Part shown: positions 39,940 to 62,504 of the stretch, one piece after another
Layout: the number at the start of each line of letters is the position of its first letter
Position numbering within the stretch: position 1 is the stretch's first letter
NCBI GenBank assembly: GCA_019218315.1
Contig: JAHUUI010000003.1
Span: 206,443 to 270,442, forward strand
Direction: 5' to 3'
Origin: Cardiobacteriaceae bacterium TAE3-ERU3
Lineage (GTDB): Bacteria > Pseudomonadota > Gammaproteobacteria > Cardiobacteriales > Cardiobacteriaceae
DNA: 64,000 nt
The notes under the pieces: generated by a model
Told to the model about the DNA's origin: nothing
Databases searched by the model: none
The model's input: only the letters and a program-made list of their open reading frames with translations
Program-made: the position numbers and the translations under genes

Positions 39940-40438
39940 GCGGTCAGAGATCAGCATACACGCAGCAAAATTGATTGATCCACTACGTTATGAGTTTGGG
40001 AGAATTCACTGACTACGCTTCTAGTTCAGGGCGAAGGTTCAGGCAACGCTAGGCAGTATCACCCCAACAATCCCGTATGATGAAGCCGTCGCAAGCAGCC
40101 AGTGGCATTACTACCATCATTGAATACATAGCCGCCAGCCATTGTGAAGTGCAAATAACAGCGCCCCCTTTCAAATAACCCAAAAACCAATACCTTTGGG
40201 GCTAGTGGCACAAATAGTGCGCCGCGTACCATGCTCCATGGCTAAGATGATATGGATTATTGGGCAGTAGAGAAGGAATTCGATGCGCTATCCTTGTTCC
40301 ACAGTGTGGATATTAACCTTTGACGAAGAGCCTAATAATGATGGCAGCACTAATAGAATAAACCTTAATGAAGGCAGGGAAAATGTTGCCGAATTCAGAA
40401 TGACAAAAAAGGCCTTTTTAAATTCATAAAGTTGATTA
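39940..40438. other. Gene-free decayed stretch
   Basis: About 500 bases without a usable reading frame. Short frames occur but each is quickly stopped and none is recognised. It looks like eroded accessory DNA leading into the AT-rich transporter gene. Confidence 0.45.
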
Positions 40439-41638
40439 ATGATGAAACAATCATTTTTTACCCTTCAAAACAAGAATATTTCTTATATATGGCTTTTTAG
40501 TATTTGCCTCTATACGGGAATGTGGCTATCAAAGTATTTCCACCCGCTTTTATTTAATGCTCATGATGCATTAAAAAACTTCGGAATAAGCTACTCAGTC
40601 ATGGCTATGACAGGAGCCTTTTCTTTTTTCTACGGAAAAATTATTGCAAAGCATTCACTTCAAAAAGGGTTGTTTGTAGGCTGTATTCTTTATTCTATTG
40701 GCATGTTTCTAAGGATATACACTGACTTAACAGCTTCAATTTTTTCAGGAATGATAGCTGGAATGGGTGCGTCAATATCCCTAATATGCTTATCATCATG
40801 GCCATTTTCAGAAACAGCAGAGAATGCGCGAAATAAACTTTTTGAGCATTCACTGCATGCTGCAAATATGGCAAGAGGCCTCATAGTAACTATTGTTGGG
40901 GTTATCTTTATCAGCCTTACCGAGCTGATTGATGTAAAGAAAATAATGATCATGGCATCATTATTACCTATTACAGGATTTATTTTGTGCAGAAGCCACA
41001 TTCCCAACCATCTTCCCAAGAAAATACAGCAAAAAACAGCCAGCATTGATGCTATCAAAAAGACTGGAGTTCTACATTTATGTATTTATTCCGTGATATC
41101 GGGTTTTTGTACAAGCTTCATCATTCCTTACTTACCTATACTATTAGAAGAACAGGCCATTTCAGGCGGTCAAATTTTGATAGTACTGGGGGTTAGCTCC
41201 CTCATAACTGCTACAACGCAGCCTTATATTGTAAAGCAGATATCCAATAGAAAAATCACCCATTTTTTTCTTATAAGTACGATATTTTTGGGCACTTCCA
41301 CATTTCTTTTAGTTATCTCTAATTCGGGAATACTACCTTTAGCAATGATAATTACTCTTCGCTTTATTTCAGCTAATGCTGTCTTTTATACGCAGAGAGT
41401 TATTGAAATGCGATTAGTTGATAATGATAGAGCGAGCGAAAGAATGGGGCTTATTCAAAGCGCGTTCTTAATTGGAGATATGTTTGGAGGAGGCATAGCA
41501 GGAATATTTTGGAGCACGGGGCAAATAAAGTTTATTATCATGGCTATAGGGATATTTATAATAATAAATGGAATTTATTTGCTAAAAGTTTACAAACATT
41601 ACAAGAAGCATGAAATAAAAGAAGCAACTAGCATTTAA
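40439..41638 (+). CDS. MFS family transporter
   Basis: A 399-residue protein with about twelve hydrophobic segments and MFS-type loop features (YGKIIAKHSLQKG between helices 2 and 3; an internal break near residue 190). It is strikingly AT-rich, with many Ile, Lys and Asn, compared with flanking pgi and torC, which suggests acquisition from an AT-rich genome. The substrate is not recognisable; drug or metabolite efflux is possible. It stands alone between decayed sequence and insertion-sequence remnants. Confidence 0.78.
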   Translation: MMKQSFFTLQNKNISYIWLFSICLYTGMWLSKYFHPLLFNAHDALKNFGISYSVMAMTGAFSFFYGKIIAKHSLQKGLFVGCILYSIGMFLRIYTDLTASIFSGMIAGMGASISLICLSSWPFSETAENARNKLFEHSLHAANMARGLIVTIVGVIFISLTELIDVKKIMIMASLLPITGFILCRSHIPNHLPKKIQQKTASIDAIKKTGVLHLCIYSVISGFCTSFIIPYLPILLEEQAISGGQILIVLGVSSLITATTQPYIVKQISNRKITHFFLISTIFLGTSTFLLVISNSGILPLAMIITLRFISANAVFYTQRVIEMRLVDNDRASERMGLIQSAFLIGDMFGGGIAGIFWSTGQIKFIIMAIGIFIIINGIYLLKVYKHYKKHEIKEATSI

Positions 41639-41685
41639 AAAATTTTAGTTTGGATTCCAAAATCAGGTTGAGCTTATCCTACAAA

Positions 41686-41883
41686 CTATTCAATAATTAA
41701 TTTAATGTCTGTACTGAAATTATCCACAAGAGCACTCCTTGTAGTTAAACCAATCAACCTCCTGTGGCTGACTTTACACCAGCAGTTCTGCTTGCCATAA
41801 ATTCTCCAGCCATTGCTTTTTACACTCTGCACGCTTTCTATGTGCTTTATAAACGACACATATATCAAATCCAATTTGACCAC
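41686..41883 (-). pseudogene. IS1-like transposase zinc-ribbon remnant
   Basis: The minus strand reads VKSNGWRIYGKQNCWCK.SHRRLIG, resembling the InsA-type start of IS1 elements in which a zinc ribbon contains NG...YGKQNY.CK.C.RQFI. The flanking cysteines are partly lost and there is no remaining catalytic part. It directly follows the IS3-type remnant, so this patch has received more than one element. Confidence 0.45.
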
Positions 41884-41889
41884 CTCTTT

Positions 41890-42070
41890 ACAGCATACCT
41901 TTTGAAAAACACCACCCTCACATTCGGGTTCTTTGGGCTTTTGAGTGCCGAGGCATCCAGTCCTCCGTATTTTGATTTTCAGCTATAGTAAGTTGTGTTT
42001 GCGGCAAATATCTTCACCAGCGCCATTCCAAATAGCGATAATTTGTGCCTCGCTGAACCGTGATATCTCA
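41890..42070 (-). pseudogene. IS3-family OrfA remnant
   Basis: The minus strand reads RFSEAQIIAIWNGAGEDICRKHNL, then in a shifted frame YS(stop)KSKYGGLDASALK. This is the helix-turn-helix OrfA of IS3 elements (RFSE.QII...G....LCRKHGIS..TFY.WK.KYGG), with a short deletion and frame damage. No OrfB catalytic part remains. Confidence 0.7.
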
Positions 42071-42326
42071 ATACTTCTTCCCCAAATAACCAAAATCTGG
42101 TTTACTCAAGTTCGGTTTAGGAATCTCACATGTCTTTCTCAGCTTCATTTATCCAGTCACTATCTATTTATTTGCATAGCTTACGAAGCCTAAAAGCACT
42201 TGCTTTTGTTTGCAAGGAGCTCTAATTTCAGAGGAACGGTCGTAAAGCAATCCAAAAATAAACACAAGAACAATGCCTTGTTTTCTACGCTAGAACCATT
42301 TTTCTGGAATCCTGTAATAAAAAGTA
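42071..42326. other. Unassigned stretch before the tor promoter
   Basis: About 250 bases between the IS3 remnant and the palindrome/FNR site. No gene, RNA or intact element is evident. Confidence 0.4.
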
Positions 42327-42340
42327 TCGTATAGATACGA
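42327..42340. promoter_or_regulatory. Palindrome abutting the FNR site
   Basis: TCGTATAGATACGA is a perfect inverted repeat (TCGTAT / ATACGA) ending one base before the FNR-type site. It could be a second operator. It does not match the TorR, NarL or CRP consensus as I know them. Confidence 0.45.
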
Positions 42341-42354
42341 TTGATAAACATCAA
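42341..42354 (+). promoter_or_regulatory. FNR-type anaerobic activator site
   Basis: TTGATAAACATCAA matches the FNR consensus TTGATnnnnATCAA exactly, 92 bases before the torE start. TATTAT/TATAAA sequences at about 42396-42407 could be the -10 box, which would place the site near -60, a class I position. This predicts oxygen-limited expression of torECAD. Confidence 0.7.
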
Positions 42355-42446
42355 TTAGGGGCAATCATCTTAAATCCTCCTTGCACTGCACTTACTATTA
42401 TTATAAATTGTTTATAAATAATTTTAATGATTCTGGGGAGTTTTTC

Positions 42447-42593
42447 ATGCAACAACCACCTGTTAAGCGCCAGTGGCTCAGTGCACTGGTCATGTCTTTT
42501 CTTGCGCTGCCGATTATTTGCGTACTCTTTATCTGCGCCTATGGCTTCATCTTGTGGTTTGGGCAAATGTTGTTTTGGGGCCCGCCAAAATAA
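42447..42593 (+). CDS. torE: TorE/NapE-like small membrane protein
   Basis: A 48-residue single-span protein from the ATG at 42447, preceded by GGGGAG. After a short polar start (MQQPPVKRQWLSAL) a long hydrophobic helix runs to GFILWFGQML, ending FWGPPK. Size, topology and position directly before torC match TorE/NapE proteins, whose function is not settled. It is the first gene of the tor operon. Confidence 0.72.
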   Translation: MQQPPVKRQWLSALVMSFLALPIICVLFICAYGFILWFGQMLFWGPPK

Positions 42594-42767: not shown

Positions 42768-44003
42768 ATGAACGCAATCAAGCGCCTGTTCAGCTGGCTC
42801 GGTCGGCTATTATTCAAACCATCGACCCAAATCGGCCTCGGCATCCTGATTATTATCGGCTTTGCCGGTGGTGTGTGGTTCTGGTGGGGCTTTAATACTG
42901 CACTCGAAGCGACCAACAAGGAAGAGTTCTGCCTCTCCTGCCACACCATGCACGACAACCTCCTCCCTGAATTACAGAAAACCGTTCACTGGAAAAACCG
43001 TACAGGCGTACGCGCGCGTTGCCCGGACTGCCACGTACCGCACGATTTCAGCGACAAGATTGCACGCAAAATGCAGGCGTCACGCGAAGTGTGGGGGCAA
43101 ATTGTCGGCACGATTGATAACCGCGAGCTGTTCAAGGAACACCGCCTGACACTGGCGCAGCGTGAATGGGCGCGCTTCAAAGCGAACAATTCCAAAGAGT
43201 GCCGCAACTGCCACGATTACAACAGCATGGATTTCAGCAAGATGCGCGTCACCTCGCAGATGATCATGCGCAGCGCCGCCGAGCGTAACGCTAGCTGTGT
43301 TGATTGCCATAAAGGTATCGCGCACCAGTTGCCGGATCTGAGTGGTGCACATAACCCAGCGTTTGATTCCCTGCTTTCTGAAGCAGCAAGCAGCACCATC
43401 AGCGTAGGCGAAACCTATTACAACGTCGTACCACAAGATTTGTTCACCGGCGCTGACAAACAAACCAAAGCCGGTAGCATCGAAGTGGCAACACCAGTCA
43501 AAGTGCTCGCCCACGAAGACGGCGCAACCCAGATCGAGCTCGAAATGTGGCGCAAGAACAAAGGCTTTGGCCGCGTGTGGTACGGACATTTCGGCCTCAA
43601 TATTGTTGATGTGGTTATCGAGAAAGACCTCGCCCGCGACGACAGCATCGTCGAAGTATTGGAAAGTCAGGAAGATCCGCTTACCGGCCTTGAGTGGCAA
43701 AGAGTGCGCGGCCAGTTCTGGGTTGCCGATGGCGGCCTGATGCCAAGCATCGAACCAGCATGGGATATTGCCCGCCAAAGCTACAGCGACAGTTGCAGCG
43801 TCTGTCACCGCCAGCCAAACCCTGCTGGACATGATGCCAACCAGTGGCCGGGCTTGTTCGCAGGCATGGTCGGCTTCACTAACCTCGATAGCGATAGCGC
43901 CAACCTCGTCCTCAAGTACCTACAGCTGCATTCGTCCGACTTCACCAGCGGCGAACACGGTGGTGGCTCACCAGAAAATGCCATCCAGGGCGCAAGACCA
44001 TAA
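42768..44003 (+). CDS. torC: Pentahaem c-type cytochrome TorC
   Basis: A 411-residue NapC/NirT-family quinol dehydrogenase, anchored by one N-terminal helix (QIGLGILIIIGFAGGVWFWW, residues 21-40), with the rest in the periplasm. Five CxxCH haem sites are visible: CLSCH (55), CPDCH (85), CRNCH (145), CVDCH (177) and, in the C-terminal part, CSVCH (343). Four plus one distal haem is the TorC layout. It takes electrons from menaquinol and passes them to the terminal reductase encoded next. Confidence 0.93.
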   Translation: MNAIKRLFSWLGRLLFKPSTQIGLGILIIIGFAGGVWFWWGFNTALEATNKEEFCLSCHTMHDNLLPELQKTVHWKNRTGVRARCPDCHVPHDFSDKIARKMQASREVWGQIVGTIDNRELFKEHRLTLAQREWARFKANNSKECRNCHDYNSMDFSKMRVTSQMIMRSAAERNASCVDCHKGIAHQLPDLSGAHNPAFDSLLSEAASSTISVGETYYNVVPQDLFTGADKQTKAGSIEVATPVKVLAHEDGATQIELEMWRKNKGFGRVWYGHFGLNIVDVVIEKDLARDDSIVEVLESQEDPLTGLEWQRVRGQFWVADGGLMPSIEPAWDIARQSYSDSCSVCHRQPNPAGHDANQWPGLFAGMVGFTNLDSDSANLVLKYLQLHSSDFTSGEHGGGSPENAIQGARP

Positions 44004-44021: not shown

Positions 44022-46535
44022 ATGAATAGCATTAAACGCAGAAACTTCCTCAAATCCCTTGCGGCACTGTCCGGTTCGGCATTACTACCCAAGCCACTAT
44101 TGGCAGCTGACGCCGTGGTCACCGCTGCTAATGGCGGCCGCCCTGATACCAGCGGATGGAAAGTATCCGGCGCACACTGGGGCGCATTCCGCGCCAAAAT
44201 CGAGGGCGACAAACTGGTTGAAGTACAGCCGTTTGAGTTCGACCAATATCCGAGTGATGTGCTGCAAGCCGTACCGGGAGTGCTCTACAGCTCATCGCGG
44301 GTACGCTATCCGATGGTACGCCTCGACTGGTACAGAAACCGTAAGGACAGCGACACCAGCCAGCGCGGCGACAACCGCTTTGTCCGCGTCAGTTGGGATA
44401 CCGCGCTCGATATGGTCTATGACGAACTAGAGCGCATCCAGAACGACTACGGCCCGTGGGCATTGCACACCTCACTGGTCGGCTGGCGCTCGGTCGGGCA
44501 AATCCACAGCTGCGGCAATCACATGCTGCGTGCTGTTGCCATGCACGGGCGCAGCGTCGGCACCGCCGGAGACTACTCGACCGGCGCAGGGCAAATGATT
44601 TTGCCGTATGTCCTCGGCTCAACGGAAGTTTATTCACAAGGCACATCATGGCCGCTGATTCTCGATAACTCGAAGGTCATCATTTTCTGGTCAAACGACC
44701 CGATTAAAAACCTGCAAATGGGCTGGAACACCGAAACCCATGAATCTTACGAATACTTTGAAAAGCTGCGCGACAAAGTGCGCAATGGCGAGATTGAAGT
44801 CATCAGTATTGACCCAGTAAAAAGCAAGACGCAAAACTACCTCGGCTGCAAACAGCAATACATCAACCCGCTGACTGACGTCGCCTTCCAGCTCGCACTG
44901 GCGCATACCCTCTACACCGAAGAACTTTACGACAAAGACTTCATCAAGACCTACACCCTCGGCTTCGATGAATTTACCCCGTACCTGATGGGTAAAACCG
45001 AGGACATGGTCGAGAAAACCCCGGAATGGGCGGCGCCAATCTGCGGCATCGAGCCAGAGCGTATCCGCGAACTCGCGCGCCTGATGGCAAATAACCGTAC
45101 CCAGCTGATCTTTGGCTGGGCGATCCAGCGTCAGCAACACGGCGAACAGCCTTACTGGATGGGCGCAATTCTCGCCGCCATGCTTGGTCAGATTGGTCTG
45201 CCCGGTGGCGGCATCAGCTACTCGCACCACTACAGCTCGGTTGGCGTACCGGCATCGGGTGCATCCATGCCCGGCGCATTCCCGCTCAACCTCGATACCG
45301 GCCGCAAGCCTAAATACGACAATGAAGACTTCAACGGCTACAGCTCGGTCATCCCTGTCGCGCGCGCGGTTGATTGCCTGCTCGAACCCGGCAAAGTCAT
45401 CAACTTCAATGGCCACGAAGTCACCCTGCCGCCGTATAAAATGGTCGTCTTTTCCGGCTGTAACCAGTGGCACCGCCAGCAGCAAAAGAACCGCATGAAA
45501 GAAGCCTACCGCAACGTCGAAACCGTCGTCGCTGTGGACTACAACTGGACGGCAACTTGCCGCTTTGCCGACATCGTCCTGCCTGCCTGTACCCCGTACG
45601 AACGCAACGACCTCGACGCTTACGGCTCGTACAGCAACCGTGGCGTAATCGCCATGCACAAACTGGTTGACCCGCTCTATCACTCGAAGCCCGACTTCGA
45701 CATCTGGTACGAATTCTGCAAACGCATGAACCGCGAACAGGAATACAGCCGCGCCATGACCGAAATGCAGTGGTTAGAGCAAATCTATGAAGACTGCCGC
45801 GCTGAGAACCTCAAAAAAGACTACTTCATGCCGCCATTTGCCGAATTCTGGAAAAAAGGCTACGTTATCTTCCCAGAGGGCGAACTGTGGACGCGCCACG
45901 CGGCATTCCGCGAAGACCCCGAAGTCAACGCACTCGGCACACCATCGGGCTTCATCGAAATCAGCAGCCGCAAAATTGCCAACTACGGCTACCCTGACTG
46001 CAAAGGCCATCCGATTTGGATGGAAAAAACCGAACGCTCGCATGGTGGCCCTGGCTCGGACAAATTCCCACTGTGGCTACAATCCGTCCACCCCGACAAA
46101 CGACTGCACTCGCAAACCTGCGAAGCTGAAGAATGGCGCTCGACCTACACCGTGCAGGGGCGCGAACCCTGCTTCATTAGCCCCGAAGACGCAGCTGCAC
46201 GCGGCATTGCCGACGGTGACCTGATTCGCGTCTTTAACGACCGCGGGCAAGTATTGGTTGGTGCTGTCATCTCGGACAACTTCCCGCCCGGTGTCGTACG
46301 TATTCAGGAAGGTGCATGGTACGCCCCGACCGGTGCAGAAATTGGCGCACTCGATACCTACGGTGACCCCAACACACTCACCATCGACATCGGTACATCG
46401 AGCCTCGCGCAAGGCCCAAGCCCCAACACTTGCATCGTGCAAATGGAAAAATGGGTTGGTGAAGCACCGGCAGTCACCGCCTTTGGCGGCCCAACATTCG
46501 TCAACCCAGACGGAAGCCCGGCTGAAAAAATCTAA
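44022..46535 (+). CDS. torA: Periplasmic TMAO/DMSO-type molybdoenzyme TorA
   Basis: An 837-residue molybdopterin-guanine-dinucleotide reductase of the DMSO reductase family. A Tat signal ([14 protein letters not shown]) leads the protein to the periplasm. The molybdenum ligand Ser is in GDYSTGAGQ (S186); there is no N-terminal iron-sulfur Cys motif, consistent with TorA, TorZ or DorA. Cofactor-binding segments include [15 protein letters not shown] and the C-terminal [11 protein letters not shown]. The preceding pentahaem TorC and following TorD favour trimethylamine N-oxide as substrate; biotin sulfoxide or DMSO cannot be excluded. Confidence 0.92.
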
Positions 46536-46588: not shown

Positions 46589-46662
46589 ATCCATAGCGTG
46601 ATTTGTCACCTTTAGCAAACCATGCCACGATACCCATGAAGAAATACAATTCCCAAAATACC

Positions 46663-47325
46663 ATGAACACAAATGAACAATGGCAAGCAGCCAACACCGC
46701 CCGCGCCGCACTCTATCGCTGGTTTGCTGAACTCTTTGCCCACGAACTCACGCCTGCTACTCTCGATCAGTGGCAACACGGCAACGCCTACACCAGCATT
46801 CACGAGGCATTTAGCAGCCTAGGATTAGAAGAAGAAAGCCAGCGCGTGCAGAACGCAATTAATGATCTTGAGCAACTGCCCGAAAGTGAGCGCGCGCTCG
46901 AACTCGCCGCCGACTTTGCCCAGCTCTTCTTACTCAGCGGCCGAGACAGTGCACCTCCCTACGCCTCGTACTACCTTGAAGATGATCAGCGCCTCTACGG
47001 CAAACCGGCCGACGACATGCGCCGCTTCCTTGACCAACATCAGCTCACTCTGCACCCCAACTTCCGTGAGCCAGACGACCACATCAGCGTCTATCTCATT
47101 GTCATGAGCCTGTGGATTGGTAATAAGGAACAGGATGCAGCTACCAATGTCCACGAACAAGCTGAATTTCTCGACAACGCCCTACTACCGTGGCTTGCCG
47201 ACTTCAGCGACCGCTGCCAGACCATCCGCAGCCAAAACGACTTCTACCCCGCCATCACCAGCCTCGCCACGCAGTTCATCCGCTGCGATCGCGCGATTCT
47301 TGATGATATTTCGGTATCTGGCTAA
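46663..47325 (+). CDS. torD: Molybdoenzyme chaperone TorD
   Basis: A cytoplasmic all-helical chaperone of about 220 residues that binds the TorA signal and apo-enzyme until the cofactor is inserted. The sequence RAALYRWFAELFAHELTPATLDQW, then DFAQLFLLSGRDSAPPYASYYL, matches the TorD family. I chose the ATG at 46663 (MNTNEQWQ) because the family starts there; an ATG at 46636 is possible. No strong ribosome-binding site is evident for either. Confidence 0.9.
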   Translation: MNTNEQWQAANTARAALYRWFAELFAHELTPATLDQWQHGNAYTSIHEAFSSLGLEEESQRVQNAINDLEQLPESERALELAADFAQLFLLSGRDSAPPYASYYLEDDQRLYGKPADDMRRFLDQHQLTLHPNFREPDDHISVYLIVMSLWIGNKEQDAATNVHEQAEFLDNALLPWLADFSDRCQTIRSQNDFYPAITSLATQFIRCDRAILDDISVSG

Positions 47326-47539: not shown

Positions 47540-48213
47540 GGGGAGGCTCGATAACATAAATTATCTAGGATACTCACATGAGAAAGAGTCGTTTGAGCCA
47601 TTTATAGCAGGTGCAACAGCACGAATAGCAGCCGCTTTAGTTGGTATGAATAAGACGACAGCAGCATATTACGTTCATCGTCTAAGAGAGCTGATCTATC
47701 AGCACATCGAACATATGGAAATGCTTTGTGGTGAAGTTGAAACTAATGAATCTTATTTTGGTGGCAAGCGCAAAGGAAAGCGAGGTAGAGGTGCGGCTGG
47801 AAGGCATCTATATTTGGATTACTTAAGCATGATGCAAGGTTTATACAATTGCTATAGCAAAACTCACACAGCAACACTATTACCTATTATTCGTGAGCAT
47901 GTTAAACCTGACAGCATTGTTTATACTGATACCTACCGAAGTTATGGTATGGCTGATGTGAACGAGTTTTATCACTACCGGATAAAATCACAGCAAACCG
48001 TTTGCCAACAAGCACAATCACATAAATGGTATAGAGAACCTTTGAAATCAGACTAAACGCTATTTACGCAAATTCAACGGTATACCGAAAGAGTATTTCC
48101 AGTACTTTTAAAAGAATGCGAGCGTTGCTTTAATAATAGCGACCTTAAATCCCAACTAACCTTTTTTAAATACTAACTAAAGGGCGTTGAAACTAGTTAT
48201 CTATGACAGCCCC
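47540..48213 (+). mobile_element. Degenerate IS1595-family (ISXO2-like) element
   Basis: The ends are imperfect inverted repeats, GGGGAGGCTCGATAAC on the left and, read inward from the right, GGGGCTGTCATAGATAAC. TTAA lies outside each end; full 8-base target duplications do not match. The right TTAA contains the brxL stop codon, so the element inserted exactly behind the BREX operon. The internal transposase gene is broken. Confidence 0.75.
47578..48176 (+). pseudogene. IS1595-family transposase, broken
   Basis: Pieces in different frames give MRKSRLSHL, then FIAGATARIAAALVGMNKTTAAYYV, the first catalytic part CGEVETNESYFGGKRKGKRGRGAAGR, IVYTDTYRSY, and RYLRKFNGIPKEYF with a final LLKECERCFNN. 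This is the ISXO2-like DDE/DDN transposase order. An early frameshift, an internal deletion or frame change after AAGR, and a stop after QYF or EPLKSD make it inactive. Confidence 0.85.
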
Positions 48214-50262
48214 TTAAGTTTTAATAAATGTGATCTCGAATGCCTTGCATGGGCGATATTGCTGCAGACGATTAGCAAAAGTAAAACTATCCTTCATTTC
48301 ATATTGCTGGAAAACATCAAGACCACGATCAAGGGAAATTTTCCAACCATGATCGGTGACAATATGTCGGGCATGAATTGTACCGGTAGTATCAAATTCC
48401 CAAGTAAAGTCCACACCTGTACTCTTTGCTGACTTTTGTATCTGCTCAAAGTTTTCTTTTTGTTGCTCACCTCTAAAATCATCTTCTACTGTTATCAAGT
48501 GCACAGCTACTTCTTCATCTGGCCCCTTATGCTTCACTATAGTCTCAAGAAATTCCATAAAATTTCGTATCTGATAGAACAGACGGATATAAGGATCCGT
48601 TACAGTGAATTTAGTCGCTCCTTTGATATAAGGGCCTAGTAATGTATCAAAGGAGAGCCCCTTCTGGTTTTCCTGAAAAGTAAGATGTTTTTCTTTGAGA
48701 ACAGGTTCATCTGAAACATTATGCGCAGGAGAACCTGGATGCTGGACTGATTGTTCAACTCCCAGTATTTCACTATCTTCTTCCCCTATAATGGTTTTGT
48801 GGTAGTAGCTAGGATATTCCTCTTCTTCAAGTGTAGTAACAGGCGTTGCTTTGCCATCAAGAGCCTGATAAGAAAAATAAACATCACCATAAGTTGAATC
48901 AATGCGCATTAGTTGATCTTTGACGCGTTTACGGCCTTCAATTGCGAACCGTAAAAGTTCCTCTGTCTCTTCCCTTGTTGCCTCTCCATGCGGGAATAGT
49001 ATTTTCATCAGACCAGAGAAAGTCTTATGAATACCATCGCGATCCCGTGTAGAGATATCGGAAGATAGAGAGAAGTACTGCTTATAGCGATCCGAGTAAT
49101 CGTGATTGCGCAGTGAGCGTAGAATCTCGGCCAAGTAATCAACCACAAAACCATAACCACTGGAGAACATTTCACCCCGAATGATATCTACCTCCCAGCC
49201 TGGTATATAGAAGTGAATACGATCCAAAAATGCTGAATCGTAGAACTTATCAGGCAATTCGCAAAATAGATCAGAATGCTTAAGCATATAAGGGACGGTG
49301 TGCTGTGTGTTCCCCACAAATACCATAGAGGCTTCAGCACCCAAGGTCTCAACGCCTCGGGAGAAAGACTTGTTGGCCATATAGTTTTTCATGATATCAA
49401 CCAAAGCCTTGTCTACTCTTTTTTGCTTTCCGGCAAACTCATCAAAAGCAACACAGTCCCAGTAGCCAACCAAGCCAATCTTTCCGGATGAATTATTCAC
49501 AAACAACTTTGGTACTGTTACTTCGCCACCAGAAATCAAAATCCCGTGAGGTGAGAACTCTGAATAAATATGTGATTTGCCGGTTCCCTTAGGACCAAGT
49601 TCAATCAGGTTGTAGTTGCGTTCGCAAAAAGGGATCAAGCGAATTAACTGGGTAAGCTTGCTGCGTTTGCCGAACATCTCAGGATTAAAGCCGATACTTT
49701 GTATCAGTAAATCAATCCACTCATCAGTAGTAAATTGTTTGCGTGCCTCAACATAAGTATCAAAATCGAAGTGTGAAAGCTGAATTGGCTTGAGAGTTGA
49801 AAGTATCCAAGGGCTAGTACCCTTATCTTCAGTAAACTCATATTCCAGATCCGCAATGCACCATACTCCTCCGACCAAAAGTTTGGGATGCTTTTTTACT
49901 GTTCCGGAATCGACTAGTATTTCTTTAATACCCAAATTAGAAAAATGTGCTTCATAGACGTCTTTCTTATCATTCAGACTAACGCTGATTTTATCGATAA
50001 CCTTATAGCGTCCTTTTTCCTTGATATTGGAGCGAACTAATCCTGCTTCATTGCGGTGTACATAATGCCTGGCAAGGATCTCCTTAACCGTCTCAATACC
50101 TGTCTGAATAGTTGCTTCATCGCTGGTAGCACAGTATTGGCCAAGCAAATATTCCAGAACATAAGAGGGAACGATGGCATTGCCTTTAACGGCCTTGACG
50201 AGGTCTTTGCGTACGACTAGCCCTGGAAAGAGTGAATTTATTTTCTGATCTAGTTTGTTCAT
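48214..50262 (-). CDS. brxL: BREX BrxL AAA+ protein with C-terminal MITD1-like domain
   Basis: A 682-residue BREX protein. Residues 1-455 match BrxL closely: VVRKDLVKAVKGNAIVPSYVLEYLLG, YKVIDK, FSNLGIK, Walker A GPKGTGKS (223-230), Walker B VAFDEFAG (271-278), and EGRKRVKDQL. After a variable linker (455-530) the usual Lon-like domain is absent. Residues 535-682 instead resemble the C-terminal phospholipase-D-like domain of eukaryotic MITD1: GLSFDTLLGPYI, TDPYIR (555-560), HLIT, IHARHIVTDHGWKI and GLDVFQQY, ending RPCKAFEITFIK. BrxL forms DNA-encircling rings needed for type 1 phage defence. This end may change membrane or DNA binding. It is the last BREX gene; the IS1595 remnant touches its stop. 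Confidence 0.92.
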   Translation of the reverse strand: MNKLDQKINSLFPGLVVRKDLVKAVKGNAIVPSYVLEYLLGQYCATSDEATIQTGIETVKEILARHYVHRNEAGLVRSNIKEKGRYKVIDKISVSLNDKKDVYEAHFSNLGIKEILVDSGTVKKHPKLLVGGVWCIADLEYEFTEDKGTSPWILSTLKPIQLSHFDFDTYVEARKQFTTDEWIDLLIQSIGFNPEMFGKRSKLTQLIRLIPFCERNYNLIELGPKGTGKSHIYSEFSPHGILISGGEVTVPKLFVNNSSGKIGLVGYWDCVAFDEFAGKQKRVDKALVDIMKNYMANKSFSRGVETLGAEASMVFVGNTQHTVPYMLKHSDLFCELPDKFYDSAFLDRIHFYIPGWEVDIIRGEMFSSGYGFVVDYLAEILRSLRNHDYSDRYKQYFSLSSDISTRDRDGIHKTFSGLMKILFPHGEATREETEELLRFAIEGRKRVKDQLMRIDSTYGDVYFSYQALDGKATPVTTLEEEEYPSYYHKTIIGEEDSEILGVEQSVQHPGSPAHNVSDEPVLKEKHLTFQENQKGLSFDTLLGPYIKGATKFTVTDPYIRLFYQIRNFMEFLETIVKHKGPDEEVAVHLITVEDDFRGEQQKENFEQIQKSAKSTGVDFTWEFDTTGTIHARHIVTDHGWKISLDRGLDVFQQYEMKDSFTFANRLQQYRPCKAFEITFIKT

Positions 50263-50275
50263 CGTTCCCTATCCT

Positions 50276-52774
50276 TTAAAAATCAAAATCACTGGTAAAC
50301 GAGCGTTGCATCCGATAGCGGAGTGATTTGTATTCTTTATAATGGGATGTTCCGCCATGCTTTTCTTCGAGCCGAAGAATAACCTCTTGACCATTAACTT
50401 CATCAGCTTTGCGCGTTAATACAAATCGAACTTGCAATTCCCGTTCCCGAGCATTGTCCGAACCAAGATCAAAGATTAAATCATGGCTATCAGAGATTAA
50501 ATCACCCGCTTCGGTATAAATACCGGCTCGTAGAACTCTTGGTTGAACCTTATCTGTCACTGGTGAGGACTGATACATTGTCACAGCCAATTGACCGGAT
50601 GTTATCACTGAACTTGACCCGCTCAGAATATCAACATCGACAACTGTCACATCACTCTGACGCTTTTTATTGACTTTAAGTACCGGGATAACAACTTCTT
50701 GTAAAGATGCGCCACCATGAACGAAGCGACTACCTGCGCCCTGCACGCGTAGACGGTTAATTGATTTAGGAATTTGGATCTCAATTTCGCCAGCAAGACC
50801 TATCTGTTCGGCATTGAATTTACGCAGACTTGATACTTCAGCAAGGCCTTCTCCAATAATATAGCGTCTGCTACGAGAAAAGATTTTTTCACCTTGGGGT
50901 GCAACCGTAGAAAAATCACTTTCGTCAATAGGGCGATTCTGGTAAATAAAGCCGTGATCTGCAGTAACAAGAATATTATTGGCATTCGCTGCTGTCAGCT
51001 TTTTAATTAGTTTAACAATATCGTCTAAAGTTTTTTCGGCAGCCTCAAAAGCCTCTACTTCCGAGTGTTTGTCATCTCCTGTATGGTCTATACGATTGTG
51101 ATAGATGTAAACTACATCGTTGGCCTTCAGCAATTCTCGACCTGCATCGCGGTTAAGTGCCATAAAGTTTTCCGCAGAAACCGCTGCACCTCGACCATCC
51201 AATGCCATTTGTAAAATTTTGTTTCGGTTAGCTGTACCTTGAGAACTTTGATCATCAACCAGTACGGAGCCTAAGTCGTTATCAGTAATAGTCAGTGTTT
51301 TATTAGGCAGTAATGCGGCCATGCCAAGCTGAGTGTAGCTGGGCAGCATTGAAAGTACAGACTCCAGCTCAGCACTGTAGCGATCTTCCTTACGTATTAA
51401 GCTGAGCAGCTCATCACCAATTTCATAGCGTAAGGCGTCCGAGATAATCACACAAATCTTGTTATCTCTTTGTAAAAAAGGTTTAACCCAGTGCTCAAAA
51501 AACTCATTTTGTTTACGTACAGGCAAAGCTTCCCACTTGGGTACATTATCTACAAAACTTTGAAAGCGATCTCCCAGTTTTAACAGATAGTTATTAGAAT
51601 AGAAATTATCAATCTGCTCGGTTAAACCACTCATCAATTCTGTCGTATTTGACATCCGTACATGGTAAATAAATTTTCGATAAAATTGATCAAGCTGGTA
51701 CCAGAGGTTGCTATAGCATTGAATGCCTTCTACAAGGCTATTCATTGTTAAATCAACCTCTCCAAGAACATGCATAAACTGTGCTGCATAATCAATTGCT
51801 TCATACGAGTACTTATAATCATGATACCAGCGACTTTGACGCCGCTGACGAACCCAGATTGCCACATCTCCCTTTGATACTGTACGGGCTGCCACCGCAC
51901 GTACAAGATCACTGATTATTTTTAAATCAATCGAGCGGAAATAATCCAACTCCAACAACTCACGAAAATCTCGCTTGATTAAGTCCTGTTCAATATTAAG
52001 TGCTTCAGCATACCGACCTGATAGCAATTCGAAACAGTCTTCAAATTGACGGCTGTCCTTCCAGCGTTTAAGGAAAACCAAGGCATCACCAGTTAATTTT
52101 GCCTGCCGATCAGTACCCATAAAGTAGCAAGACTTGAACAACTCAATCGCAAAATCTTCGATACCCGCCTCATCGGACTTGTAGCCATAGCAGCGATCCA
52201 TCTGATCCCACAAGAAATCATTTAAGCCGCATCTATCTATCAGCTTAATTTTATCTTCACGTTCGTCTGATAACTCTTGCAGCAAATTTTCTACAACTGT
52301 ATCCATGCGCGGCTCACTCCCCGCACAGACAGCCAGCATTTTCAGACGAATTTGTCCAGCCGAGTCATCGGGCTTCAAGAGCTTCTTAAGTGCATCTTTA
52401 CGTTTGTTTGCTTGAAAAAATGCCGTATGTCGAGTGACTATATCTGCAAATTCCAAACCAAGCTCGAGCTCGGATAGCCAAATGGCTGCTTGATCGGTAC
52501 GGAGTTCGGCATGAGCAAGCTGCACGTCCAATAACCAGTTGTCAATATCAGCAGGCTCTGGCCCCTCGCGGTAAAGCAAAAATTTTTGTTCTGGCTGTTT
52601 GCGCAAAATTCTATATTTGATGCCGTATTCATTATTAGCAAGTTCGAGCTTCTCAATGCCTACCAGATCAAGTACCTCAAAAGCATCCCGCAGCTCCCGT
52701 TTCTCGTCGTACCAAAATACAATTCTGTGCCGATTGAAGAGTTTGGTTAATGTATTTGCTATTTGCTGATTCAC
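50276..52774 (-). CDS. pglZ: BREX PglZ alkaline-phosphatase-superfamily protein
   Basis: An 832-residue core BREX protein. The alkaline-phosphatase-like metal-site motifs are ICVIISDALRYEIGDELL (D446) and later ILVTADHGFIYQ; the N-terminus has the family's FWYDEKRELRDAFE. PglZ helps PglX methylate host DNA and is needed for phage restriction; its chemistry is not fully resolved. It starts at GTG, overlapping the stop of the upstream DUF262 gene by four bases, so the two are translationally coupled. Confidence 0.94.
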   Translation of the reverse strand: MNQQIANTLTKLFNRHRIVFWYDEKRELRDAFEVLDLVGIEKLELANNEYGIKYRILRKQPEQKFLLYREGPEPADIDNWLLDVQLAHAELRTDQAAIWLSELELGLEFADIVTRHTAFFQANKRKDALKKLLKPDDSAGQIRLKMLAVCAGSEPRMDTVVENLLQELSDEREDKIKLIDRCGLNDFLWDQMDRCYGYKSDEAGIEDFAIELFKSCYFMGTDRQAKLTGDALVFLKRWKDSRQFEDCFELLSGRYAEALNIEQDLIKRDFRELLELDYFRSIDLKIISDLVRAVAARTVSKGDVAIWVRQRRQSRWYHDYKYSYEAIDYAAQFMHVLGEVDLTMNSLVEGIQCYSNLWYQLDQFYRKFIYHVRMSNTTELMSGLTEQIDNFYSNNYLLKLGDRFQSFVDNVPKWEALPVRKQNEFFEHWVKPFLQRDNKICVIISDALRYEIGDELLSLIRKEDRYSAELESVLSMLPSYTQLGMAALLPNKTLTITDNDLGSVLVDDQSSQGTANRNKILQMALDGRGAAVSAENFMALNRDAGRELLKANDVVYIYHNRIDHTGDDKHSEVEAFEAAEKTLDDIVKLIKKLTAANANNILVTADHGFIYQNRPIDESDFSTVAPQGEKIFSRSRRYIIGEGLAEVSSLRKFNAEQIGLAGEIEIQIPKSINRLRVQGAGSRFVHGGASLQEVVIPVLKVNKKRQSDVTVVDVDILSGSSSVITSGQLAVTMYQSSPVTDKVQPRVLRAGIYTEAGDLISDSHDLIFDLGSDNARERELQVRFVLTRKADEVNGQEVILRLEEKHGGTSHYKEYKSLRYRMQRSFTSDFDF

Positions 52775-54654
52775 AAAATTTCCTCTTCAAATATCTCTTC
52801 ATCAGAATCTTCTGCAGGCGTTTCCTCCAGCATTGATTTAGCAACATACACACGAGAAATTAAACGTTGCTTAAGATTTGCCCGACGGATTTGATAAAAA
52901 TCTTCAAAGTCAGAAAACTCAAAACTGACATCATCCGCCAATAAATCTCCCCTTGTAATATGAATAGATGGATCATTAAACCACTCATTTAGGCTTCTTG
53001 TACCTTTTGACGCATTCTGGGAGTCATTCAATAAATGGAGATTTGCAATCGAATTCCAGTGAGCAGAATCTTTATAGAAATCAAATAATTTTGAATCTAC
53101 TGATAGAAATGAATGCTTCTTCAATGCTTTTTTATCAAATTCAGATTTAGGATGGAGGTGATCAATATGATAGATCCTATTGGGATCCATTTCAGGAAAT
53201 AAAAGATGCAAAAGCGCTCTACAGCGCCTTTCTCCGTACTGGATATTAAGCATACTTTCAATATAATCGTCATCAAACCGAAGGTCTTTATTGGTTGCTT
53301 TGTAGCGTTCAATAATTGCATCTAGAGGAAATTCCGGCTCATTTATATTCGATCTCAGCACCTCTCGCATACTGGTGAGAATACTATCTGCCTGGCCACC
53401 AAAAATACCTTTAAGTAGAACCATATAAAGCCATTGACTAATTTTGGCTCTCTGGTTATCTACTTTTGCAGGATTATTTATTACATTATAAAGTGGTTTT
53501 TCATTAAAAATATGCTTATATAAATAATAGCAAATAGGTATAACTGCATTTTTGGAAGTGAGAGATTGTGGATTAATACCGAAACTTTTAATTAAAATAA
53601 AAGTTGCTTTGATGCATTCTTGAATTGACGACCATTGATCTTGAATAATGGCGACCTGTTCTGACTTAAAATTCTGGACTTTAAATCTCACGTCAGTATC
53701 AGTGAGCATCAGACATGTTTTTAAAATCCAGTCTCTTTCAATATAGAAACCCATATTCACGTTTTGGTGAATATATTTTATCAGACTATCTATTTCTTGC
53801 CGGAAATCACCATCCCAGTTTGCTACTGCTATAGACATTAGCAGATCAGCAAAATCAAGCTTTGTTCCGCCACTATTGGTTCGAATAAAAACATCCAACA
53901 CATGGTCTATCTCTTGGCTGGTTTCTTTAAAATAATGGATAATTTTCTGTATTCTTATGGTGTTATAGACTTTTAGGAGTGTCTTGCGCGCAAAATCATT
54001 ATCGAGTAGGTTTCGTTTTTCAAGCTCAGGCAAGACAATATCCATAAGAATATCATCCGAACTTGATTTCTCAGCCATGTTTAATACGTCATGCATACAA
54101 AACCAATGGTGTGCAGCCGCAGGATCAGATCTCGCCTCCTCATACTGACGCTCTGTTAAAAAGCGGAAGTTATAGTACATTAAGGAGTCATCCTGCTCTC
54201 TATCAACAGGTCGCTTCAGATCAAGGTACAACTTTCTGGGCGGGAGAACCTTATTGTCTTGTGTACTTGGCCACCACACCCTTGGTTGCTTATAGGCATA
54301 GGTACTACAAAGCCCTATGTAAAGTGAGGTAAGTCGCTGCTGTCCATCAATAACAGCATTAAAATCCTTGGAACTTGCATTGGTTATATAGTGGGGATTT
54401 TCCTCTTTGAATCGTTGACAATATGCATTTAAAAACTCGTAAAATTTATATCCTTGTTTGATATGAGAGTTCTTAACTTCCCAAAACATACAGGTATTAA
54501 TCGGGTAGCCTCGCAAAATAGAATCGAATAACACGCAAATCTGACGAGTACTCCAGACAAACTTACGCTGGATTGCAGGAAGTAAAAGTTCTCGACTATT
54601 AATGCTATCGATCGCTTGTTTGATAGTAATGGGTTTTTCGTATTCACCTGCCAT
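52771..54654 (-). CDS. DUF262/HNH protein inside BREX operon (GmrSD/BrxU-like)
   Basis: A 627-residue protein with an N-terminal DUF262 domain (LLLPAIQRKFVWSTRQICVLFDSILRGYPI; DGQQRLTSLYIGL at about residues 103-115, the NTPase-like motif) and a C-terminal HNH-type end (IDHLHPKSEF, then NSIANLHLLN...NASKG). This is the single-chain GmrSD layout, a type IV restriction enzyme family that cuts modified DNA; BrxU is a member encoded inside another BREX locus. The ATG at 54654 follows the pglX stop by two bases. It probably covers phages whose modified DNA escapes BREX. The middle is AT-rich. Confidence 0.88.
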   Translation of the reverse strand: MAGEYEKPITIKQAIDSINSRELLLPAIQRKFVWSTRQICVLFDSILRGYPINTCMFWEVKNSHIKQGYKFYEFLNAYCQRFKEENPHYITNASSKDFNAVIDGQQRLTSLYIGLCSTYAYKQPRVWWPSTQDNKVLPPRKLYLDLKRPVDREQDDSLMYYNFRFLTERQYEEARSDPAAAHHWFCMHDVLNMAEKSSSDDILMDIVLPELEKRNLLDNDFARKTLLKVYNTIRIQKIIHYFKETSQEIDHVLDVFIRTNSGGTKLDFADLLMSIAVANWDGDFRQEIDSLIKYIHQNVNMGFYIERDWILKTCLMLTDTDVRFKVQNFKSEQVAIIQDQWSSIQECIKATFILIKSFGINPQSLTSKNAVIPICYYLYKHIFNEKPLYNVINNPAKVDNQRAKISQWLYMVLLKGIFGGQADSILTSMREVLRSNINEPEFPLDAIIERYKATNKDLRFDDDYIESMLNIQYGERRCRALLHLLFPEMDPNRIYHIDHLHPKSEFDKKALKKHSFLSVDSKLFDFYKDSAHWNSIANLHLLNDSQNASKGTRSLNEWFNDPSIHITRGDLLADDVSFEFSDFEDFYQIRRANLKQRLISRVYVAKSMLEETPAEDSDEEIFEEEIL

Positions 54655-54656
54655 GA

Positions 54657-57600
54657 TCAATCCTCTTTTGCTTCAAGACCCACAATTTTCTTCAACGCTG
54701 TGCCAAATTTAGGGTAGTTTACTTTCACGCCATCATCGAGATCGATCGCTACTTGTTCAGTCGCTAGTGGGTAGAGTACCTCATGTTCGTATTCTTCCAT
54801 CTCGGTAATCACCTTGCTGATTTTTTCGATCTCTTTGAGCGCCTTGGTTTTTTCGCTCTTACTGCTATTGGTGTTAATGCTGACCGCTTCGAGATGGCGT
54901 TTATGCGATATGAGTTTGCTGTGGAATTCACGTAAATAATTATTGAGCACGACACTAACAGTATCCGGCTGATAACGGTGCATATAAATCAATGCATTGA
55001 AATTTCCTTTCGGGCTGGAAAACAGCCAATAAATCGGACGCTTTTTATAGCGCTTGACGTGATCATTGTAAAAATCCTTCTGGAAGTATTTGCGAATATC
55101 CTTGCCCAAAGCATTTTCAATAAACGCCAGATTATCAACGTAATGTTCCTCGCCGAAAGTTGTTCGTAAAAATTGACGGAAACGTTCAACGATATCATCA
55201 GTAAACCAGTCATTGTCGAGAATTGGGATAACATTATCCTTATCCGGCATAAAGCTTGGCTCTGCATTCTGTGCCAAATAATCCTCTATGCTCTCACCTT
55301 GATTGGCCAGTATCAGTCCCGGCTGATCAAGGCTGTAGCGACCGAACATACAACCGACAGCATAGGAAATCAATTCACGTATGGTATCGGCAAGTAACAG
55401 TGCTTCTAGTTCCTCGTCTGTTTTATTACCGCCATAACGGTAGTGCGGATTGCAGGTCAAAGTAATCTCATTCAGCGGAACATCTGGCGTCAGTTCATCC
55501 TGCAAGCCATAAGCATCAATAAAGATTCGGTTATTCTCTTCTTCTAGACGCAGCATCTCTTGTGTCATTTCATGCCAATGTTGACGCAATGTGTTATATG
55601 TTTCTTGTAGGGTATCTTGGCGGTATTCAGGATTAAGCAGTGGTAGTGCGGTGAAATCCCATGAGGCTTCGTAGGCATCCCAGTCTTTAGATGATAGCTT
55701 GATAAGGGCTTCTATTATGTTTAAATTTTTTATTTCTTCTTTAAAAGGTAACTTTGAAATGGTTCCTTGTTCAAAATTTAGTGTTTGACTAAGCAAAGAT
55801 AAAAAAAATGAACATACCTTAGAATTTAAATATTGAGTTACTTTGAGTGTATCAATACGATTATCAGTAGGAACTTTCGATCCTGCATCACTAAAAATAA
55901 ATCCACTATCAGTATAACGACATGAAAAATTAGAAGATGTAATTTTTCCCCATGTGACACCTGGTTTAAAATAATAGAATGTATTTTTTGCTACGAATTC
56001 TGGATTTCCATTTAAATAGGGATATTTTAATACAATAGTATTTTTTATATCTTCTCCATTACATTCCCAGTTAACAATAGATGTATTATTTCCGTACCAT
56101 TTTCTAAATCCCCCTCCTTTATCCATAGGAAACCACTTCATTTTTGATTCAAGAGCCATTTCACAAGTTTCCATACCAAATCCAATCTTTCTGATTGGAA
56201 CTTCGAACCAATTTCTAACAAATTTATTATTATCTGTAGTAGTTAATCCCTGTCTTGGCATATATCTTTGAGACAAAGAAATAGTATTTTCAAATGAAAT
56301 AAAAGCATTTGAGTGAATCCAATATACAACAGGACTTCCAGGAATCTTTTTAAAGTCCGCTGCAGAAGCACGGTAGAACCAGCCACAGTCTGTATTTTGG
56401 ATTGCCTCAAGTGCGCGTGGAGCCTGATTTTCAGCACCACGGAAATCAGATAAGCGTACGTATCCCCCTTTATATTCTTCGCGATGAGCATTTTCTAAAG
56501 TAAAGGTGCAAATTGGTACTGTTGCCCCATCAAATCCTGAATACTCCAGTTGAATAAGTGAAGTAATTGTTTTTTTGTCAATAATAAAGTGGCGCAACTT
56601 CTCATAGGAGGAAATAAACATCCATACAAAAGGTGTCATAAATCCTAGTTGCCCTTTGGCCAGAGCTAATTCGCTATTGCGCACAACAAATGCAGCAAAT
56701 AAATCCGACTTCATATCCTGATAGTGATCTTTTAACCACTTTGCCAATCTCGGATTCATACCTTTCCCCCCCATATACGGTGGGTTAGCAACAACCACAT
56801 GATATTTAGGGCTTAGGTAATCAACCTGATGCAGGACTTGCAGCACTTTTTTATGTGTATTGCTTAAAAATAGTTGTCCGGAAATATCTTTTGCCCGGAG
56901 CATATTGAGTGCTTCATTGACTTCGGTCACTTGCGGGCGAATTAGAGCACCAAAGTTATCGGCCTCTTCGAATTGACTCAGTGTTTTTCTCAGTGGCAAA
57001 GTGAGCAAATCTCGCCCAACAAACTCCATATAGGCATCTAACTCGTTATCAGCAAAATGGACGTTTTCCAGTACACAGATGTTGGGTTTGATTTTTTTAG
57101 TGAAGAAACGTCGCTGTTTGGCACGTGCTTTCATGGTCAGGGCAAAAGCAGCGAGCTCTCCGGCACGCTCGTCAATCTCGATACCGTACAAGTTATGGGT
57201 GAGGATTTTTTCCGGTATGTCACGAGCATCGTAGCCTTCTTCTTCGTAAATGGCGTAGAGCAAGTCAAAGGCATAGGTCAGCATATGACCGGAACCGCAT
57301 GCGGGATCACAAATTTTGATTTCTTCCGGTTTGGTGATGCGCAAGAAATCATCCTCAGCCTGCTCGGGTTTGATGTAGTAATCCATCTGTTCTGCCAACT
57401 TTGAGTTGGGACGATTGAGCAGCCACAAGCGACCAAGAGAGTTTTCAACCAGATAGCGAACAATCCAGTGCGGCGTAAATAATTGGGTTGCAGCGGGAAT
57501 ATTTTCCGGTGTGATTTTTTTATTTTTTTTCAGCCCATCAAATACTTCGTCTTTTTTTTCAGAAATGTAGAACTGGTAGAGCCAGCCGATCACCTCAACA

Positions 57601-58178
57601 TCTTCACAGGCATCACGTGTCATGGCTTCCCGTGTGTTGGCAAGAATGGAGTTGTCCGAAAGTAGATTATCAGGCATCAATAATTCGGTGTAATCATCGA
57701 TACGCTGGAACAGGAATGGCATAGCTGCGTTCAAGTAGTTACAAACAGCAACTACCAGTAAGCGGTATGCTTCTCCTTGTGGATCGCGGCTGGGTGCTTT
57801 ACCGCTGAGCAAATCGGTGACATATTGCCGGACATCATCACGAACCATTGTTTCATCTATGTGTCCCATTTTGGCTTCAGCGAGAATTTCTGGCTGGGTT
57901 TGCCCTTCAGTCGGCGATACCACACCAATACGGGTATAGTGGTTCACGTCCATAAAACGTAGCGCACAAAATCGGTTGAACCAAATGTATGCTACGCGTT
58001 CAATAATTTGTTCCTTGCTGTGCTCTTGAATTGCTTCTTCGAGTTTTTTTACGGCTTCCGCATTTTCGCGTCGGGCGGCACTGTCTTTGATCAGTACCTG
58101 TTCCAGTTTGCCCGAAACCTGTTCCAGTAGGCGGCGGCGAGCCGACTGAGCAAATTTTTTAAGTTTAGCTGTTTCCAT
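54657..58178 (-). CDS. pglX: BREX adenine-specific DNA methyltransferase PglX
   Basis: A 1173-residue type 1 BREX methyltransferase that marks host DNA at a non-palindromic adenine site and is required for exclusion of phage. The SAM motif DPACGSGHML begins at D291 and catalytic NPPY at residues 465-468 (VVANPPYMGGKGMNP). The region after about residue 650, where target recognition resides in the family, is much more AT-rich than the N-terminal half, in line with recombination of specificity segments. It follows brxC by about 175 bases. Confidence 0.95.
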   Translation of the reverse strand: METAKLKKFAQSARRRLLEQVSGKLEQVLIKDSAARRENAEAVKKLEEAIQEHSKEQIIERVAYIWFNRFCALRFMDVNHYTRIGVVSPTEGQTQPEILAEAKMGHIDETMVRDDVRQYVTDLLSGKAPSRDPQGEAYRLLVVAVCNYLNAAMPFLFQRIDDYTELLMPDNLLSDNSILANTREAMTRDACEDVEVIGWLYQFYISEKKDEVFDGLKKNKKITPENIPAATQLFTPHWIVRYLVENSLGRLWLLNRPNSKLAEQMDYYIKPEQAEDDFLRITKPEEIKICDPACGSGHMLTYAFDLLYAIYEEEGYDARDIPEKILTHNLYGIEIDERAGELAAFALTMKARAKQRRFFTKKIKPNICVLENVHFADNELDAYMEFVGRDLLTLPLRKTLSQFEEADNFGALIRPQVTEVNEALNMLRAKDISGQLFLSNTHKKVLQVLHQVDYLSPKYHVVVANPPYMGGKGMNPRLAKWLKDHYQDMKSDLFAAFVVRNSELALAKGQLGFMTPFVWMFISSYEKLRHFIIDKKTITSLIQLEYSGFDGATVPICTFTLENAHREEYKGGYVRLSDFRGAENQAPRALEAIQNTDCGWFYRASAADFKKIPGSPVVYWIHSNAFISFENTISLSQRYMPRQGLTTTDNNKFVRNWFEVPIRKIGFGMETCEMALESKMKWFPMDKGGGFRKWYGNNTSIVNWECNGEDIKNTIVLKYPYLNGNPEFVAKNTFYYFKPGVTWGKITSSNFSCRYTDSGFIFSDAGSKVPTDNRIDTLKVTQYLNSKVCSFFLSLLSQTLNFEQGTISKLPFKEEIKNLNIIEALIKLSSKDWDAYEASWDFTALPLLNPEYRQDTLQETYNTLRQHWHEMTQEMLRLEEENNRIFIDAYGLQDELTPDVPLNEITLTCNPHYRYGGNKTDEELEALLLADTIRELISYAVGCMFGRYSLDQPGLILANQGESIEDYLAQNAEPSFMPDKDNVIPILDNDWFTDDIVERFRQFLRTTFGEEHYVDNLAFIENALGKDIRKYFQKDFYNDHVKRYKKRPIYWLFSSPKGNFNALIYMHRYQPDTVSVVLNNYLREFHSKLISHKRHLEAVSINTNSSKSEKTKALKEIEKISKVITEMEEYEHEVLYPLATEQVAIDLDDGVKVNYPKFGTALKKIVGLEAKED

Positions 58179-58353
58179 TATTCATCCTTTGACTCAGGTG
58201 CGCGTCAGTTATCAACTTTCTCTGCAATTACCTGTTATTAACTCGAAGCATTGATACAATCCAGCAATCTAGTCCGATTTAGTTCTTCAGAGTCCATCAT
58301 TGTAATCGAGCTATTTTCTCTATTTACAATTTAAGTTCTGCCAGAGCAAGCAC

Positions 58354-61881: not shown

Positions 61882-61892
61882 GCTTTCCTTGT

Positions 61893-62504
61893 CTATGCTT
61901 CACAGTGAAAGATATTAAATGCTCGATAGTATTTGTCATCATGCAGTCTTCCAAAGAGATCGAGCGATGCTCCGGAGTCTGGAGAATGCGTATATTCTCC
62001 AGGAAAAAACATGACAGTCGGTTTTTCCTTTGCAGTACTTTGCAGATTATTCAGGACATTGTGTGAACGTATATAGGGGAAAACTTCTCCAACACCAGAA
62101 AGGAAAAGCACCTCGAAATCGCTGTTTGCCAGCTTGGTGGCAATTGCCGGAACCAAATGAGCCTCAGGATCGAGTACGCCTTGTAATAGCTCTTTGAGTT
62201 CTTCTTTAGAAACAGAAGATTCCATTTCCAGTATCTGATCCCAGATGTCACGATCTCTAAGAATTTCTATTGAAAGATCATATAAATTAATTATCAGGGT
62301 TTGGATCCCATTCTGCTCAAGGCGATTGGAAAGTTGACGCTGAAGTCGCTCTATTTCAACGGACTCCTTCGGTTGATAAGGGCAAATAAAGAACGGAACT
62401 TCGTTACCAAGACCTTGTTTTTTTAGAAAACGCTGACCTGATATGACGCTATAGAGATGTTCCATTCTCTCCGAAATCGGAGCTTTCGCTAAATCGGCAG
62501 ACAC
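61893..62504 (-). CDS. brxB: BREX protein BrxB (DUF1788)
   Basis: A 203-residue protein of the DUF1788 family: ISERMEHLYSVISGQRFLKKQGLGNEVPFFICPYQP near the start, then LFLSGVGEVFPYIRSHNVLNNLQ and VMFFPGEY. BrxB is needed for BREX defence, but its biochemical role is not established. Its first 16 bases overlap brxA. Compact, single-operon placement fits type 1 BREX. Confidence 0.94.
   Translation of the reverse strand: MSADLAKAPISERMEHLYSVISGQRFLKKQGLGNEVPFFICPYQPKESVEIERLQRQLSNRLEQNGIQTLIINLYDLSIEILRDRDIWDQILEMESSVSKEELKELLQGVLDPEAHLVPAIATKLANSDFEVLFLSGVGEVFPYIRSHNVLNNLQSTAKEKPTVMFFPGEYTHSPDSGASLDLFGRLHDDKYYRAFNIFHCEA

Follow-up and report, generated by a model that had tools for sequence, protein, structure and literature searches.

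In the 64,000-nt window, by which we mean the whole stretch of DNA analyzed, an operon for TMAO respiration is preceded by a perfect FNR/DNR-type box. On balance we favor the reading that a DNR-like protein, the only Crp/Fnr-type regulator detected in the genome, would activate torECAD through this box, that torECAD has such a box in common with the molybdenum-cofactor operon, and that a second palindrome abutting the box is accidental.

The box TTGATAAACATCAA lies at 42341–42354 (no strand assigned) and is a perfect TTGATN4ATCAA, an inverted repeat apart from the spacer. It is the sole perfect copy in the window, with its center ~100 bp upstream of torE, in agreement with an earlier sequence-only reading that had placed an exact FNR site here. 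Family models give the order torE-torC-torA-torD downstream of the box, all on the plus strand. The first gene, torE (42447–42593), encodes a NapE/TorE-type small membrane protein of 48 aa (PF06796, 36 bits against a cut-off of 25), torC (42768–44003) a pentahaem cytochrome scoring above cut-off with TIGR02162, and torA (44022–46535) the TMAO reductase, which exceeds the cut-off of NF011682 and falls just short of that of TIGR02164 (1453.5 against 1465 bits). The torD chaperone gene (46603–47325, above cut-off with NF003442) is given as the frame was listed, and its true start may lie further in. Directly downstream of torD is an IS1595-type transposase frame (47646–48056), lying between the tor operon and a BREX phage-defense cluster on the minus strand (48214–63115 of the window) in which Pfam recognizes BrxL, PglZ, BrxB and BrxA. 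Within that cluster a GmrSD-type restriction gene (52771–54660) sits between PglZ and a large frame (54657–58178).

Perfect copies of TTGATN4ATCAA number 13 in the genome (2.41 Mb in 11 contigs), compared with one for the reversed pattern taken as a control. Eleven of these are within long open frames and just two are intergenic, one upstream of torECAD and the other upstream of the molybdenum-cofactor operon (C4:105453), where it heads moeA, followed by moaA, moaB, moaC and a MoeB/ThiF-like gene. There a TACAAT hexamer lies at class II spacing, placing the box at −40.5. TorA requires the molybdenum cofactor, and a PF00384 search of the genome revealed no nitrate reductase and, besides TorA, a single protein, which is an FdhF/YdeP-type oxidoreductase. 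The torE box is thus both perfect and intergenic, as looked for in an FNR/DNR-type operator, and from its sequence and setting TTGATAAACATCAA is a credible, well-placed putative operator before the TMAO respiration genes.

No −10 element was found for the torE box at the class II offset of 21–22, which would have placed the box near −41.5. The most plausible torE −10 is a candidate TATTAT on the plus strand at 42396–42401, matching at five of six positions and at an offset of 41 from the box; the box would then be centered near −60.5, in a class I-like position. Class I positions are permitted for Crp/Fnr-type operators. Alternative hexamers are TACTAT at offset 38 and TATTAT at offset 44. A leftward promoter from the box was rejected, with no minus-strand −10 at offset 21–22, as was a structured RNA leader, with no Rfam match up to E 0.5 between 41600 and 42800. 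ModE-like half sites were also set aside, by comparison with the consensus alone.

Similar boxes are found upstream of tor genes in other bacteria. From 30 related torC loci we examined 27, leaving out L028, L049 and L050, which either had no upstream sequence or matched weakly and in part. In 14 of the 27, the 900 bp upstream of torC contain a box with one mismatch or none, and in four (L034, L035, L038 and L045) the box is perfect. Its center is 97–144 bp upstream of torE in the Oceanimonas-Zobellella-Oceanisphaera group and 111 bp upstream in Neisseria iguanae, and a −10-like hexamer at offset 21–22 (−40.5 to −41.5) is present in seven of nine related loci scanned, L037 and L045 being without. 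In the other 13 loci no box occurs within one mismatch; among them is the locus of Psychrobacter lutiphocae, the closest TorC relative with 76% identity. Upstream of torE in P. lutiphocae (L046, 4320–4344) there are two CTGTTCATA repeats 16 bp apart, which resemble the E. coli TorR box. Such a TorR-type repeat was rejected for the tor promoter of the window, where CTGTTCATA is absent from 41639–42446. Given the position of the box, the scarcity of perfect intergenic sites and its recurrence before tor in other lineages, the assignment of a putative Crp/Fnr-type site governing torECAD is well supported.

What protein might act at this site? A domain search identified one protein with the PF00027 sensor domain in a genome rated 100% complete, located at ~717 kb on contig C1. 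In a search with PF13545 the same protein alone exceeds the cut-off; four weaker matches fall short of it, one of which, inspected by eye, has a GntR-like look. The C1 regulator has a single cysteine, where four would be needed for a [4Fe-4S] cluster, and scores 34 bits with the Fnr model NF008365, for which the cut-off is 228. No curated model names it. Its best match in the PDB is Pseudomonas DNR (3dkw; 76 bits, E 3.8e-20), followed by two uncharacterized cyclic-nucleotide-binding proteins at 74 bits each, whereas a crystallized FNR-type regulator scores below 32 bits. The recognition helix reads RPETLSR compared with QPETFSR in DNR. The closest relative is therefore DNR, with a matching recognition helix, if narrowly (76 against 74 and 74 bits).

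The genes around the C1 regulator include an NO reductase fused to a cytochrome c-like domain and a di-haem peroxidase, together with an SCO-like protein named by eye, and the gene of a copper nitrite reductase lies a few genes further on in the cluster. The NO reductase gene is preceded by the box TTGACAATTATCAA, which has one mismatch and, at offset 22, a −10-like hexamer; the copper nitrite reductase gene is preceded by TTGACTTAGGTCAA, with two mismatches. Among 12 genomes of the family nine have a PF00027 match, and the eight readable Crp/Fnr-type regulators, that of this genome included, have one to three cysteines each. An NO reductase gene lies within ~1.5 kb of the regulator at just one of the nine family loci, in this genome, and this weakens the functional argument for a DNR-like role. 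The factor acting at the torE box is nevertheless probably not FNR, because the sole Crp/Fnr protein detected has one cysteine and falls at 34 of 228 bits, is closest to DNR and has NO- and nitrite-reductase neighbors. Judged from its sequences, the bacterium seems to have no oxygen-sensing FNR, and one DNR-resembling relative only. Of the FNR site that had been read from the DNA, the Crp/Fnr-type box is thus real and well placed, and it is the name that lacks support, the only detected regulator being DNR-like and without the FNR cysteines.

We infer binding and activation by this cysteine-poor regulator at TTGATAAACATCAA, which would act on torECAD from the class I-like position. Through the matching box it would also act, from a class II position, on the operon supplying TorA with its cofactor, and the effector may be NO or a linked redox signal. 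Against this mechanism stand the lack of a class II −10 at torE, the near-tie in the structural matches, the fact that no curated model names the protein, the linkage to NO reductase at one in nine loci, and the 13 of 27 tor loci without a box.

These features may be compared with known systems. DNR is reported to recognize the FNR-like motif TTGATnnnnATCAA (PMC1274295), and as in the denitrifier DNR regulons described there, a DNR-like regulator is found here near NO and nitrite reductase genes, with TTGAT/TTGAC-type boxes; the difference is that the perfect boxes here head TMAO reductase and cofactor genes, and that an oxygen-sensing FNR/ANR was not found. In Dinoroseobacter shibae an oxygen-sensing FnrL exists beside three Dnr proteins (PMC5398030), whereas here we found no FNR-type partner and one DNR-like protein. 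In Vibrionaceae, Fnr is predicted to control torCAD (PMC1805755), with an FNR-type box likewise standing before a TMAO reductase operon; here we have a DNR-like, cysteine-poor protein as the only regulator detected, a torECAD operon and a box whose position is probably class I-like. The enzyme system is also common to E. coli, in which TorR activates and NarL represses torCAD (PMC1805755), and where FNR binds moeAB but not the promoter of torCAD (PMC10845959); the window differs from E. coli in having no TorR-type repeat at its tor promoter. Our literature search found no paper on torECAD with FNR, nor on Dnr with TMAO reductase, denitrification and regulon, and on Fnr in Cardiobacterium, Suttonella and Dichelobacter there was nothing on point among the matches listed. 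This hints, faintly, that the DNR-like/torECAD arrangement is not in print.

Adjacent to the box is the second palindrome. As had been read earlier, TCGTATAGATACGA at 42327–42340 ends at the base before the box, and its two arms form a perfect inverted repeat. It extends by one further pair to the 16-bp ATCGTAT-AG-ATACGAT at 42326–42341 (no strand assigned; arms of 7, spacer of 2), and therefore one base is common to palindrome and box. When the box was held fixed and its flanks were dinucleotide-shuffled, a palindrome with arms of at least 7 fell within 2 bp of the box in 278 of 20,000 trials (1.4%), and one with arms of at least 6 abutted it in 968 of 20,000 (4.8%), in a test that was framed after the palindrome had been seen. 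Counting arms of 7 or more with a spacer of up to 8, there are 49 palindromes in the window, so it is only a mild surprise that one of them should adjoin a notable motif. The juxtaposition is mildly unusual, and was picked post hoc.

The 16-bp palindrome has one exact copy in the genome and one copy with a single mismatch, inside a gene, and it was rejected as a regulon motif on this count. At up to three mismatches there are 97 matches in the genome and 76 for the control. In the window alone we find seven matches at up to two mismatches where 1.8 are expected, a number reached in none of 100 shuffles; the other six all have two mismatches and are scattered, with that at 55847 lying inside the frame 54657–58178. 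The context was checked for 11 near matches, all within two mismatches (eight in this genome and three in relatives), and only C5:112577, with two mismatches, is intergenic. Four of the 12 family genomes, this one included, have the palindrome within one mismatch, and the three matches in relatives all lie inside open frames, on which ground a family-wide site was rejected. Neither the 27 related tor upstream regions nor the loci of the regulator, the response regulator and the cofactor operon (L070–L072) contain it, allowing up to two mismatches. Palindrome and box combined occur in seven of 369 genomes of the class, including this one; the six foreign sites have two to three mismatches, the control gave two matches, and the combination is not conserved.

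The suggestion that a second factor acts through the palindrome has therefore no support beyond the palindrome itself, there being no second copy, no conservation and a chance rate of 1–5%; the search for it elsewhere in the genome, which had been proposed as a check, gave no second exact copy, and the single one-mismatch match falls within a gene. Two dimers would be unlikely to bind box and palindrome at the same time, because their centers are 14 bp apart and one base is shared. Such a factor had been said to compete or cooperate with FNR, and should anything bind the palindrome, competition would be likelier than cooperation. In favor of a functional palindrome are its 7-2-7 form, the 1.4% shuffle rate and the excess of two-mismatch matches in the window. 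Most likely ATCGTAT-AG-ATACGAT is accidental, without detectable regulatory role, and there is perhaps a slim chance that it is a private operator. A better candidate for a second operator lies in other genomes: a palindrome like TTAGGGTNAACCCTAG, matching at 9–11 of 12 arm positions, is found upstream of torE in five Oligella-type loci (L025, L026, L027, L029 and L030). For L030, 22 of 100 shuffles score as well; for each of the other four loci, 0–2 of 100 do. A TTAGGG-N4-CCCTAA element of the Oligella-type tor upstream regions was considered for the window and rejected, being absent from it.

Alternatively, a second dimeric regulator could bind the palindrome in competition with the Crp/Fnr protein; an example would be the genome's single NarL/LuxR-type response regulator (at ~35.6 kb on contig C6) with its neighboring sensor kinase. 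The operators of NarL and NarP are inverted heptamers with a two-base spacer, as is the palindrome, and have the heptamer consensus TACYYMT; the arm ATCGTAT is not of this type. The perfect arms, the 7-2-7 geometry and the low shuffle rate are in keeping with a composite operator, as is the presence of one GerE-domain response regulator in the genome adjoining a histidine-kinase gene, and in E. coli NarL represses torCAD (PMC1805755). This response regulator, however, scores 104.5 bits against a NarL cut-off of 250 and 95.3 against a NarP cut-off of 343, reaching no cut-off among the 25 NCBIfam models listed, and its locus has no copy of the palindrome within two mismatches. As the palindrome occurs exactly once in the genome, has no further intergenic match within one mismatch and is missing from the 27 tor upstream regions, we regard a composite operator as distinctly improbable. 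At L070 (7723–10241), this only GerE-domain response regulator lies near hemN, and the adjoining histidine-kinase gene has a weak 7TM-DISM match. Less probable still, to the point of being very unlikely, is a fuller scheme in which the family lacks an oxygen-sensing FNR and has a DNR-like protein of haem/NO type as its sole Crp/Fnr regulator, TMAO respiration and cofactor synthesis answer to NO or nitrite and not to oxygen or TMAO, and the lone two-component regulator competes at torE through the 7-2-7 palindrome.

Two other explanations were considered. The box could work as a classical FNR site, as the earlier reading had it, if an oxygen-sensing FNR had been missed through an assembly gap or as a divergent protein. 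The box is an exact FNR consensus, it is common to lineages that may have FNR, and Fnr control of torCAD is predicted for Vibrionaceae (PMC1805755); but two domain searches give one Crp/Fnr protein in a genome rated complete, the eight readable family regulators have one to three cysteines, and we consider a missed FNR rather unlikely. Slightly less unlikely, if still doubtful, is a leftover of rearrangement, in which the palindrome is debris at a junction, formed when a repeat and a low-GC stretch were inserted next to the tor promoter or decayed there. A decayed, MITE-like copy of a ~100-bp repeat lies on the plus strand at 42220–42319, ending 6 bp before the palindrome, which points to an insertion history for this stretch. 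The repeat, with inverted ends CCAGAAAAACGGT ... ACCGTTTTTCTGG, occurs eight times in the genome; the copy in the window is the most decayed, and the seven others (L089–L095) are ~75–80% alike. The 11 other genomes of the family gave no match to it, and its ends CTATA/TATAC bring Neisseria Correia elements to mind. The low-GC stretch at 40300–42450 comprises an MFS gene of 35% GC and an intergenic region of 37%, where the neighbors including the tor genes have ~56%, and looks acquired or decayed; a plasmid origin was rejected, with no plasmid match. Yet none of the seven other repeat copies has the palindrome at its edge.

If the DNR-like protein does run torECAD, then an 'FNR site' here would not mean oxygen control, and annotation of an FNR regulon from the box alone would mislead across the family. 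The abutting palindrome would be of little import unless shown to bind something. With the DNR-like protein in that role, a single regulator would cover NO reduction, TMAO respiration and the supply of cofactor, which would make for a simple system.
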